Shown one piece after another: positions 10,425 through 39,550 of a stretch of DNA of 64,000 nt. How positions within the stretch are numbered: position 1 is the stretch's first letter; each line of letters opens with the position of its first letter. Source of the DNA: Bacteroidales bacterium (GTDB lineage: Bacteria > Bacteroidota > Bacteroidia > Bacteroidales > Bacteroidaceae); assembly GCA_012517855.1 (NCBI GenBank), contig JAAYUD010000082.1, positions 1-64,000 of the forward strand, in the 5' to 3' direction. Position numbers and translations under genes: made by a program. Below the pieces are notes generated by a model. It had not been told where the DNA came from. It worked only from the letters and a program-made list of their open reading frames with translations, and made no database searches.

Positions 10425-10790
10425 TTATCAATTCAGTATTTACACATAAAAATAGTTGTAATGCACTAACAAATTTTAATATCGCAAAGCGGTGCACCTT
10501 TTATCAAGCAATAAATACCTGAATATCAAATACAATACAAATAAAACAAATATAGGCAAGACGTTTCTTTGATGCATATTAACATATAATTAGAGTATAT
10601 GTGCAAACATACAACGTTTAAAAAATATAAATTAACGAATATCATTTATACAACGAAAGGCTTGTGTTTGCACATAAACATACTTGCCCAAAGAACGATA
10701 TTTTAATACAAAACAAATGGATCGATAAAAGTTTCCGACCTTTACTTTCGAGGGCTTTGCCTATAAGGCCTATCGTTTTCATACTGACGA

Positions 10791-10888
10791 TTCATTCGTT
10801 TGGTCGTGAGCATACACATGTTTGGTCACGACCATACACTTGTTTGCTCGTGACCAAACACGTGTTTCGTCGTGAGCAAACGAATGAA
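10791..10888. repeat. 22-bp-step palindromic element B (four tandem units)
   Basis: Four contiguous 22-bp units at 10799-10820, 10821-10842, 10843-10864 and 10865-10886 share at least 13 invariant positions (TTT start, TC at 6-7, GA at 10-11, CA at 13-14, AC at 16-17, TG end). Their semi-palindromic cores are centred at 10806.5, 10828.5, 10850.5 and 10872.5. A second short palindrome, clearest as ACACGTGT at 10858-10865, falls 11 bp off phase. The whole is also a 98-bp imperfect palindrome with perfect 12-bp outer arms (10791-10802 and 10877-10888). No coding function is supported. Confidence 0.85.
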
Positions 10889-25999: not shown

Positions 26000-26537
26000 T
26001 ATCTTCTTCGGCAACATTACCGTTCAAATACGATATAACTGTTATCTGTATTCTGACTGGAACAGCAAAAAATAAGACTCACTAGCAAAAGCGTAGGGAA
26101 CATACATAGATTTATCTTTACATCCATTAAAGTCCTTTGAAACAATTTCTCAAATTACAGAAGACTTTGCCACCTCCGTATGACACCATTGCGCACTATC
26201 CCACAGTAAGTTAACGACACACCGTATACAACGCCAGCGAAAAAAGGTCCGAAAATCGGGGCAAGAGCATATTGTAGGCACCTTATTTTCGGCGGACCTC
26301 TGCTTAGAATGATTCTAAACGATAGCTTACAGATGGTTGAGAGCCCGTTTTCGCAAAAACGAATATATTCTATTCATCCGGACAAGCAGCTCATTCCCGA
26401 TGAAAGTTTTCGAGCAAGCAAATGCGACAATCCATCGGCATGCTTCTTCTTCCGTTAGCCACATAGAAGCGGTGCATAAATTCGAATGAACAGCTTCTTT
26501 ATGCTATTGAAACGACATATGTCCCTAAAAATATTTT

Positions 26538-26569
26538 CGTCCATACGTTTTCAGAAAAACATAAGGACG
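26538..26569. repeat. Degenerate 22-bp-step pair
   Basis: GTCCATAC (26539-26546, centre 26542.5) and ATAAGGAC (26561-26568, centre 26564.5) are 22 bp apart. Together they form an imperfect hairpin with T- and A-rich inner arms. It looks like a worn copy of the ATAAGGAC-type element at 26845. Confidence 0.5.
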
Positions 26570-26677
26570 TCACCGAAAAAAACGAACATACGACAATTGA
26601 GCATGATATAGACCGCTTCACTAAAAGACCTATTGCCCTAATTACCAACAACCAATAAGTTTTCATTTTTATACGAT

Positions 26678-27155
26678 GCACACCCCATTGACATAGAAAC
26701 ACGCTAATCAATAGGTGGTTATCCACAAGTCGTTTTTCAGAACATTTCTGAGGGTGAATATCGAGGACGATACTGATACTATTTTAACCATATCGAAGTG
26801 GCACTTATTGATACACAAAATAGAACCTGCGTCTTCAAAAAATGATAAGGACAAACATAAAAATTCATAAGGACGAAACCAAAAGTTTGTCCTTATAAAC
26901 TTTTAGTTTCGTCCTTATGAATTTCTCGCTAGATATCAGTGACTTACGCACGATATATTTATATCTCGCTCTTATTGAACTTACATTCGATCACTGAAAC
27001 AGTATCGGAAATAGTGCCTCAAAAGGGCTTGTAACTGATGTTCGGATAAGAAAGTATCAGAATGTCGGTGAATGTTCACCTTGAAATACGTTCCGAAAAA
27101 TGGATTACACGTAACGTGTTGCATCACAGTTTATTTCTATGTCAATGGGGTGTGC
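26678..27155. repeat. Perfect 22-bp inverted repeat flanking a 434-bp segment
   Basis: The arms at 26678-26699 and 27134-27155 are exact reverse complements, beginning GCACACCCCATTG on the left. Matching resumes outside after a one-base bulge. The enclosed segment encodes no transposase. It could be a MITE-like remnant or the ends of a lost insertion sequence. No convincing target-site duplication was seen. Confidence 0.65.
26845..26932. repeat. 22-bp-step element C with interleaved complementary units
   Basis: Cores ATAAGGAC (26845, 26867) and their complements GTCCTTAT (26889, 26911) start exactly 22 bp apart. Unit 1 (26845-26856) is complementary over 12 bp to unit 3 (26885-26896). Unit 2 (26861-26879) is complementary over 19 bp to unit 4 (26906-26924). 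The pairings cross, giving a pseudoknot-like order 1-2-1'-2'. It lies in a gene-free stretch and is not part of an ORF. Confidence 0.85.
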
Positions 27156-27321
27156 CATCCAACTATTTGCATAGACCAAAACGACACTAACATACTTGAG
27201 TTCGAGATAAAAATAAGATATATATTATAAACCGACACAAGGTCTAAATTCTATGAAGATAGAGAACACGTATAATTAGAATAAAAAGCATGATATATAA
27301 CTGATTATCATAAATATTGCA

Positions 27322-37052: not shown

Positions 37053-37982
37053 ATGGAAGTTATCCGTTTTTCATCTGCAACTTTACATCCCATCTGCGCA
37101 GCGACTATCGGTTTCTTTGATGGAGTGCATCGCGGACATCAGTACTTGATAGATCGTGTCAGAGCTGTTGCCAAACGAGAGAACTGCCGTTCGGCTGTAA
37201 TCACTTTTCCCGCTCCTCCCCAGCAAATAATAAATCCGGCATTCAAAGCACAACTTATCAGTACTTATGAAGAGAAAATTGAGATGCTTTCGGAAAAAGG
37301 TATTGACGAATGTATCATTCTGGATTTTAATAAAGAACTGTCGAGCCTTTCGGCAAAGCAATTTATGAACGACATACTCAAAGAGCAATTTAATGTCGCC
37401 CATTTAATTGTAGGATACGACCATCGTTTCGGACACGATAGACGTGAAGGCTATAATGACTATGTACGTTATGGAGAAGAAATAGGAATAAGCGTAGAAG
37501 CCGTACCTGCTTTCGAATGGCACGACCGTATCATTAGTTCTTCGGCAATACGCCAGTTGTTATACAAAGGTAATATTGAAGAGGCGAACGATGCACTAGG
37601 ATACTCCTATTATATAAAAGGGGAGGTTATAAAAGGACACCAAATGGGTAGAAAGATGGGATTCCCAACAGCCAACATTGCCCTAAACAGCGACGAGAAA
37701 ATTGTGCCGAAAGCAGGAGTCTATGCCGTCAGAGTTCATTCCAAAGGAGAAACCTATGGTGGAATGCTTAATATAGGCCATCGACCCACTCTTGATAACG
37801 GCAATGACACAAGCATAGAAGCACATATTCTCGACTTCGACAAAGATATTTATGGCTGTCCGATCTGTATTTCGTTCATTAAATATATACGAAAAGAACA
37901 AAAGTTCCCGTCTATCGCAGCCTTAATACAACAATTGAATATTGATAAAGAGACAATAGAAAAGATACTTGAAAATGATTGA
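37053..37982 (+). CDS. ribF: Bifunctional riboflavin kinase/FAD synthetase
   Basis: A 309-aa RibF enzyme that makes FMN from riboflavin and FAD from FMN. The N-terminal nucleotidyltransferase domain shows GFFDGVHRGHQYLID and the ISSSAIRQLL segment. The C-terminal flavokinase domain has GRKMGFPTANI and GVYAVRVH. Length is normal for the family. It is the last gene of the plus-strand run, and no FMN riboswitch is visible upstream. Confidence 0.93.
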   Translation: MEVIRFSSATLHPICAATIGFFDGVHRGHQYLIDRVRAVAKRENCRSAVITFPAPPQQIINPAFKAQLISTYEEKIEMLSEKGIDECIILDFNKELSSLSAKQFMNDILKEQFNVAHLIVGYDHRFGHDRREGYNDYVRYGEEIGISVEAVPAFEWHDRIISSSAIRQLLYKGNIEEANDALGYSYYIKGEVIKGHQMGRKMGFPTANIALNSDEKIVPKAGVYAVRVHSKGETYGGMLNIGHRPTLDNGNDTSIEAHILDFDKDIYGCPICISFIKYIRKEQKFPSIAALIQQLNIDKETIEKILEND

Positions 37983-38172
37983 TTAACCAAACGGGGAATC
38001 ATATTGCAATTTGCGCACTCTACATTCGACATCTCTGCCACGGTGGTCAATGCGCTGCCTAAAATGCTTTTAAACGCTTCGTGATATCTTTCTAAAAGGA
38101 TGAAGTCTGTGAGACATACTGACGAAAGTTGGTTCACCTCAGAGAGGTTTTATCTCTTTGTCCCGAGAAGAA

Positions 38173-38268
38173 TGTCGTTCCACATATGTGAGTTGATCGA
38201 ATCACATATGTGAGTCGATCGTTCCATATATGTGATTCGATCAACTCACATATGTGGAACGACAAAAC
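38173..38268. repeat. 22-bp-step palindromic element D (92-bp near-perfect palindrome)
   Basis: Perfect 37-bp arms (38173-38209 and 38228-38264) flank an 18-nt centre. The arms are made of CACATATGTG-like cores starting at 38181, 38203, 38225 and 38247, exactly 22 bp apart. GATC-centred secondary cores lie 11 bp off phase at 38196.5, 38218.5 and 38240.5. The structure alternates two short palindromes every 11 bp. It could form a long cruciform or RNA hairpin. No function is known to me. Confidence 0.9.
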
Positions 38269-38509
38269 CTTAATGAGCCAACAGAAATACCTTAAATACG
38301 ACAATCCTGATTCAATAAGATGTGTACAAAAAACCTTCTCTCAGAAAAGAGCCGGATCACTTCCATGCACGGGCAGTGAGCAAAGAAGTCATTACCTACA
38401 AGCAATTAAAAATGAGTTGAAAGGAGTTTCGGCACGGTGCACACACCACAGATGCCGGATGATGACTTAATCGGTTGATATACGAAGTGGGCGATCCAAG
38501 TTTCATAAT

Positions 38510-38596
38510 ACGTTATCAGTAAGCAAGATAACGTCATTTCGAGGTCCCAAAAACAAGTCACACCTGTATATGTTATTCATAGTCAACAAGATAACA
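38510..38596. repeat. Pair of related hairpins in the ribF-comF gap
   Basis: ACGTTATC (38510-38517) pairs with GATAACGT (38527-38534). About 60 bp later TGTTAT (38571) pairs with ATAACA (38591-38596), both right arms following CAAG. The two look like diverged copies of one structure, possibly a terminator pair for the convergent genes. Confidence 0.45.
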
Positions 38597-38842
38597 TGAC
38601 GGATACTTCAGCAACAATAAAAAACAACAGAACTGCCATCACCTGAATAATTCATACTTGAGCCGACATAAGAAGAAAGGTAAAAGCGATTCAAATACAA
38701 TAAGTGGGTGGTAATGATGGCGTTATTGCCCCTTTATCATTGTGACAGCAATGCCTCAGCGTCCGAAATATGTTTAGAAATAGGATAAGCTTTTATTCTA
38801 ATGAACTATCGGGAGCAGAAATATCATTAAAGCTATAACCTT

Positions 38843-39550
38843 TTATTGAGCAGCAACGGCCAATGTGAGTAAACTGACTTTCGCCTCTTTGAGAGTGGCA
38901 AAACTTTCGATAAAAGCCAATGCTGTTGCTCCAGTAGTGACAACATCGTCAATAACTAAAATATGTTTGCCTTCAAGACGTTCGGGGTGCTCGAGTTGAA
39001 AGATTTGCTGAACATTCTCCCATCTTTGAAAAGGTGTTTTCCGTGTTTGCGTTTCGACGTGTTTTACACGCTTCACAGCATGCATTTCGATTGGCAAATC
39101 GGTGACATGAGAAACTCCTTTGGCAATCCACTCGCTTTGATTATATCCACGAATCCGTTGCCGTTTTGGATGAAGTACAACTGGCATCAACAAATCAATT
39201 CCATCAAAGAAATTCGATTGTTGTAGCAACTCTGCCGCCATATTTCGCCCCATAACCTCTCCTATTTCCTTTTTACCACCATATTTAATTGCGTGAATAA
39301 TCTTTCGCATTTCACTACCTCGATAGTAATAAAAATAAGATGTAGCCTTGATTAGGTTTATCCGCCCCCAGAATAGACGTTCAACAGGATTTTCGGACAA
39401 TAAATGATAATTCGTACGAGGCAGATTCAGAAGACAAGAGGTACATAAAAAATCCTCACCGCGCACCAGTGGAGAATCACAGACAGTGCAACAGCGAGGA
39501 AATAAAAGGTTTATCAGCGAACTGATATACGTAAAAACTTTATTCAACAT
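38843..39550 (-). CDS. comF: ComF-family phosphoribosyltransferase-like protein
   Basis: A 235-aa ComF/GntX-type protein. Its N-terminus has a zinc-finger-like Cys set (LFPRCCTVCDSPL, FLCTSCLLNLP). The C-terminal phosphoribosyltransferase signature is HILVIDDVVTTGATA. ComF is linked to DNA uptake, although its exact biochemical role is unclear. Its ATG overlaps the typA stop in a TAATG junction, so it is translationally coupled to typA. Confidence 0.88.
   Translation of the reverse strand: MLNKVFTYISSLINLLFPRCCTVCDSPLVRGEDFLCTSCLLNLPRTNYHLLSENPVERLFWGRINLIKATSYFYYYRGSEMRKIIHAIKYGGKKEIGEVMGRNMAAELLQQSNFFDGIDLLMPVVLHPKRQRIRGYNQSEWIAKGVSHVTDLPIEMHAVKRVKHVETQTRKTPFQRWENVQQIFQLEHPERLEGKHILVIDDVVTTGATALAFIESFATLKEAKVSLLTLAVAAQ

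Follow-up and report, generated by a model that had tools for sequence, protein, structure and literature searches.

A 92-bp palindrome between two convergent Bacteroidales genes is probably an HU-HIG array in a decayed transposon-like VapE/HU element

Long perfect palindromes are not expected to persist in bacterial DNA, and the one studied here raises the question of where it came from and why its arms still match. It lies between two convergent genes in the window, that is, the whole 64,000-nucleotide stretch of a Bacteroidales bacterium contig that was analysed. The original prediction was that a palindrome maintained at such a place implies recent origin or selection. This was the right question, but the site proved to be neither single nor tied to this locus: about 40 copies are present in the genome, and their source is the region upstream of an HU-HIG gene. 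Our preferred reading, which we regard as probable, is that the palindrome is a cis-acting HU-HIG array and that the transposon-like VapE/HU element carrying it is a copy that has decayed and suffered internal deletion.

Structure and setting of the palindrome

The palindrome and the sequences beside it comprise the following features.

37996..38097, minus strand: decayed remnant of a VapE-like gene (N-terminal part), with which the relic element begins on the left (DNA matches)
38144..38172, plus strand: -7-like box region (TTTATCTCTTTGTC) directly before the array; TATCTTTG in better-preserved copies (sequence)
38173..38264, no strand: palindromic array, 92 bp long, with four CACATATGTG-type dyads at a 22-bp period (sequence and about 40 related places in the genome)
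38307..38411, plus strand: residues 1-36 of HU-HIG, preserved as a remnant (75% identity by tblastn, E = 9e-11)
38433..38606, plus strand: remnant of the HU-HIG gene end and the following element sequence (matches the DNA around the intact C44 gene)
38607..38706, plus strand: degenerate right-hand element sequence without a terminal inverted repeat (sequence matches)

A 92-bp palindrome with perfect 37-bp arms had been described and is indeed present, but it ends at 38264; the end given earlier, 38268, lies 4 bp beyond. If one mismatch is allowed, the arms extend to 40 nt. The four 22-bp units were located in the sequence where they had been placed, with cores at 38181, 38203, 38225 and 38247 and GATC-centred spacers 11 bp off. 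The core at 38225 is CATATATGTG, one mismatch from CACATATGTG, and the 22-bp lag score of the palindrome is 46/62. Among the hairpins in the window it is the only one with perfect arms longer than 19 bp, and by far the longest of those whose arms are perfect. The neighbouring genes, ribF (37053-37982, plus strand) and a comF-like gene (38843-39550, minus strand), are convergent, as stated in the original prediction. A tRNA search gave no match.

The palindrome could have been an assembly artefact. This is unlikely and was rejected, because the core recurs at many unbroken loci with differing flanks and other genera have arrays built in the same way. At least 10 contigs begin or finish inside, or a few bases from, a palindrome copy; thus, the assembly does break there.

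A dispersed family in this genome

The suggestion to search for the palindrome elsewhere in the genome was borne out, since about 40 dispersed matching places were found in 3.64 Mb on 114 contigs. CACATATGTG occurs 75 times in the genome, compared to 0 times for the reversed control. Copies have one to four units: one (C44), two (C46, C27), three (C27) and mostly four. The palindrome sequence was found in none of 60 related genomes (0/60), and among this set its sequence type appears to be private to the species. Four-unit arrays of a variant type (GTCGAATCATATATGTGA...) with other flanks were seen near contig ends at L048, L049 and L051 (C108, C66, C16).

Both flanks of the palindrome are repeated among the copies. 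They are decayed pieces of two divergent genes: the right flank matches both ends of an HU-HIG gene, and the left flank matches a VapE-like gene on the opposite strand. The HU-HIG gene encodes a DNA-binding protein of the HU (DNA-packaging-like) kind that has a winged helix at its C-terminus. The HU-HIG remnant lies immediately downstream of the window palindrome, whose dyads have a 22-bp period, and the middle of the gene is deleted. The intact C44 HU-HIG copy (226 aa) matches PF18291 (E = 1e-27), while the VapE-like gene corresponds to PF05272 plus DUF3874. The DNA of the left remnant shows matches of 70-71% to the intact VapE copies (L061, L062) and of 73-80% to other derivatives. A separate repeat at 38693-38820 shares about 77% identity with part of C46 (L075), next to which an element of this kind has inserted.

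In the better-preserved copies a transposon-like element about 2.3 kb long can be recognized, and the copies have their terminal inverted repeats in common. The C70 copy carries an intact VapE gene of 402 aa and a decayed HU gene with the array between them; its inverted ends are ACTTGAGTTCAAGATAAGAAATCAA and ATTTGAGTTCGGAATAAGAAATCAA, with AATGATT on each side. The target duplication is convincing at C70 (AATGATT), suggestive at C107 (AAATATA-like) and ambiguous for the other complete copies. With up to 3 mismatches allowed, the end motif TTGAGTTCGGGATAAGAA occurs 53 times in the genome and its reversed control twice. In 12 deleted copies the end motif is joined to the same point of VapE. The family thus has the terminal inverted repeats common to its copies that characterize MITEs, and also an amplified internal-deletion derivative without an intact gene; because the 12 copies have one common VapE junction, the deleted derivative must have multiplied, as MITEs do. 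Two further sequences bounded by paired ends are much shorter, at about 56 and about 129 bp. No transposase was noticed between the paired ends of the copies that were read, which enclose VapE and HU genes only, or no gene.

The window copy spans approximately 37996 to 38706 and has lost both terminal repeats. Because neither remains, it is a relic, a deleted derivative of the element. A second region of the window (26389-27213) is perhaps another relic; it encodes 17 aa resembling the C66 HU-HIG protein (26439-26389) and also holds an end-motif-like site (27196) and, at 26861-26924, a hairpin whose 19-bp arms are perfect.

Conservation of the core and matching of the arms

For 15 four-unit copies, compared with flips allowed and with 100 bp per flank, mean identity was 94.6% in the core, 77% in the left 100 bp and 84% in the right 100 bp. 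The core exceeded both flanks in 96% of the pairs. In some copies the centre or the arms are flipped relative to others. Template switching, or an inversion inside the palindrome, would generate such flipped orientations and can keep the arms matched, and this best explains the near-perfect arms together with the inverted orientations. The conservation of the core would fit selection on a bound sequence and palindrome-directed correction or conversion equally well.

These observations also bear on a rival explanation, in which the palindrome is a neutral minisatellite or MITE, selfish and non-binding, with arms matched by recombination alone. Amplified deletion derivatives, variation in unit number and internal inversions, which are typical of palindromes, all agree with it, and the minisatellite MITE BrickBuilt of Porphyromonas gingivalis is a published precedent (PMC4596501). 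Nevertheless, in many genera the 21/22-bp design is found again, built from unrelated sequences and specifically in front of winged-helix HU genes (see below). A neutral repeat is disfavoured because it would not track one gene family. We therefore consider this explanation unlikely for the family, although it may hold for the window copy itself.

Arrays upstream of HU-HIG genes

In this genome, the sequence upstream of the full-length HU-HIG genes was read directly, and most of those outside the family of the window copy proved to have dyad arrays of another sequence. Four-dyad arrays of about 84-94 bp precede the C66, C17, C38 and C68 genes, a longer array precedes the C55 gene and a single dyad the C52 gene. 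These arrays differ in sequence (TCACACGTGTGA, CTCACAGCTGTGAG, CTCACCATGGTGGG, GCTCGTGAGC, CATATGATCATATG and GACTCACGGCCGTGAGTC). The array-bearing genes mostly start 19-24 bp past the start of a TAnnTTTG-like box. Upstream of the C9 gene there is a degenerate AT-rich repeat only. The intact C44 gene, which belongs to the family of the window copy, is preceded by one dyad only; thus, the four-unit form is not strictly needed.

Non-redundant upstream regions were then compared across Bacteroidales, using shuffle controls that preserve base composition only. Among winged-helix HU-HIG genes, 33/50 had a best period that was significant and measured 22 bp (20 genes) or 21 bp (13 genes); the remaining 17/50 have no 21/22-bp array by this test. 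Among HU-HIG genes without a winged helix 4/37 showed a 22-bp period and none a 21-bp period (33/50 vs 4/37, Fisher P = 2e-7). The assignment of the winged helix is backed by the definition of PF18291, and some members also match several HTH families weakly. As the period test was suggested by reading this genome, its independent part consists of the other genomes and the named records; with the genes of this genome excluded the counts are 28/42 vs 4/36. Folding the arrays to one unit gave dyad symmetry at P ≤ 0.05 in 23/37 cases.

Furthermore, 12 previously unused plasmid- and phage-collection records were analysed. An array was present in 11 of them (P ≤ 0.01; the period was 22 bp in 10 and 21 bp in 1), compared to 1/12 for control stretches downstream in the same records. 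Among them are Parabacteroides distasonis NZ_OY725757 and two records of Bacteroides finegoldii, NZ_OY725913 and NZ_OY725911, with divergently oriented VapE and HU genes. A control stretch downstream of the HU gene in NZ_OY725913.1 (L226, 1561-1910) has a 22-bp score of 44/62, perhaps a further array after the gene. Taken across Bacteroidales, 21/22-bp dyad arrays are associated with winged-helix HU-HIG genes, and the array is probably a binding site of HU-HIG proteins.

The position of the arrays bears on whether the palindrome acts as RNA, either as a 5'UTR hairpin that attenuates or stabilizes the HU transcript or as a bidirectional terminator between the convergent genes. Its RNA fold is very stable (-68.5 kcal/mol vs -23.9 for shuffles, z = -12.4), the arrays of this genome sit between the -7 box and the start codon, and the window copy is flanked by convergent genes. 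In other genomes, however, the array may lie upstream of the -7 box. It was found upstream of the box in 6 genes and downstream in 6, where about 1.2 and about 0.7 are expected by chance; this placement on either side therefore favours a DNA site over an RNA hairpin. In addition, some arrays, such as that of L083, keep the 22-bp period and the dyads but have poor long-range pairing, the window yields no Rfam match at gathering score, and no T run follows the stem in the window copy. A function as RNA is hence improbable, and the evidence does not support the view that the palindrome arose as an RNA element or terminator between the convergent genes.

VapE genes and ownership of the array

The array of the element lies between divergent VapE and HU genes, and VapE relatives are present in phage and plasmid-collection records. 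Both facts would suit a reading in which the VapE element replicates from, or is processed at, the array, with VapE as replication helicase and no role in gene regulation. However, most array-bearing HU genes in the loci read have no VapE neighbour, and most VapE genes lacking a winged-helix HU neighbour also lack the array. A 22-bp array was found at 3/4 VapE loci with a winged-helix HU neighbour, while a 21/22-bp array was found at 2/15 VapE loci without one. The VapE replication origin was rejected, since the array goes with the HU gene and not with VapE; we regard it as very unlikely. We assign the array to the HU gene. The VapE search of viral contigs and the HU and VapE scans of a genome-contig collection gave no match.

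Other arrays in the window and the genome

A further array was identified in the window.

10790..10883, no strand: second solitary four-dyad array, of the C55 HU-HIG type (22-bp lag score 50/62, the top score in the window)

This array of 94 bp lies between divergent ROK-kinase-like and nagA-like genes, and no HU remnant was found near it. A third type of dispersed array with a 22-bp period (AACTAACGTTAGTT) occupies about 40 places in the genome (e.g. L099:4235-4440, L097:4758-4880 and L105:4376-4500), and some of these arrays adjoin the same TTGAGTTCGGGATAAGAA end motif. Since arrays occur apart from their genes, binding in trans is possible.

Proposed mechanism

According to the HU-HIG reading, the cognate protein, with its HU domain and winged helix, would bind neighbouring dyads side by side on a single face of the DNA, with two helical turns from one to the next. 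In front of the gene for this protein the array would act as an autoregulatory operator and as the assembly site of the protein. We infer that binding on the array is cooperative and accompanied by autoregulation, because the dyads are two turns apart on one face and are tied to a protein with an HU fold and a winged helix. Transposition would have dispersed this operator-like array through the genome. Copies elsewhere may be trans binding sites for the product of the surviving full-length C44 HU-HIG gene, or inert relics.

Relation to known systems

BrickBuilt is a MITE of P. gingivalis with tandem 23-nt units and 19 copies in strain ATCC 33277 (PMC4596501), and it is the nearest published relative of the palindrome family. 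Like the family described here, it is dispersed and intergenic, varies in unit number (down to 1) and has short inverted-repeat ends (PMC4596501). One BrickBuilt copy lies beside a PF00216 (HU-type) gene, and its ends resemble those of ISPg1/ISPg9 (PMC4596501). It is set apart by its description: in the accessible part of that paper the 23-nt units are direct repeats and are not described as dyads, no VapE/HU remnants are reported and no link to HU genes is drawn (PMC4596501). PINSR, a 188-bp repeat of Prevotella intermedia, is likewise high-copy, lineage-specific and intergenic and comes from a related group; in contrast to the element described here, it has no terminal inverted repeats, and neither a 22-bp array nor a gene remnant is described for it (PMC4755523). 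REP/BIME sequences with RAYT transposases are also dispersed extragenic palindromes, but the unit found here is much longer and multi-dyad. No PF01797 (Y1 transposase, RAYT kind) was found in the genome, while 5/14 control genomes were positive, and REP/RAYT identity was rejected because the genome has no Y1 transposase.

The family that supplies the array, HU-HIG (PF18291), is defined by an HU domain fused to a wHTH, Ig or Gly-rich motif, and the intact copies in this genome match it. In the literature searched we found nothing relevant on arrays before HU-HIG genes and no description of upstream DNA arrays for PF18291; within this scope, the link between array and HU-HIG appears to be new.

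HU-HIG genes are common in the Bacteroidaceae searched, and the literature searched does not describe which DNA they target. A family-wide 21/22-bp dyad array with member-specific sequence provides a direct, testable link between protein and site. As a broader and still speculative idea, to which we give a small chance, the winged-helix HU-HIGs could be a large family of self-addressed nucleoid-type proteins, each recognizing its own 21/22-bp dyad array and assembling there; scattering of the arrays by transposition, in this genome about 40 copies of one type and about 40 of another, would create new sets of protein-organized or silenced sites. Operator-like arrays that escaped into mobile elements may explain otherwise unexplained dispersed palindromes and minisatellite MITEs in this group.
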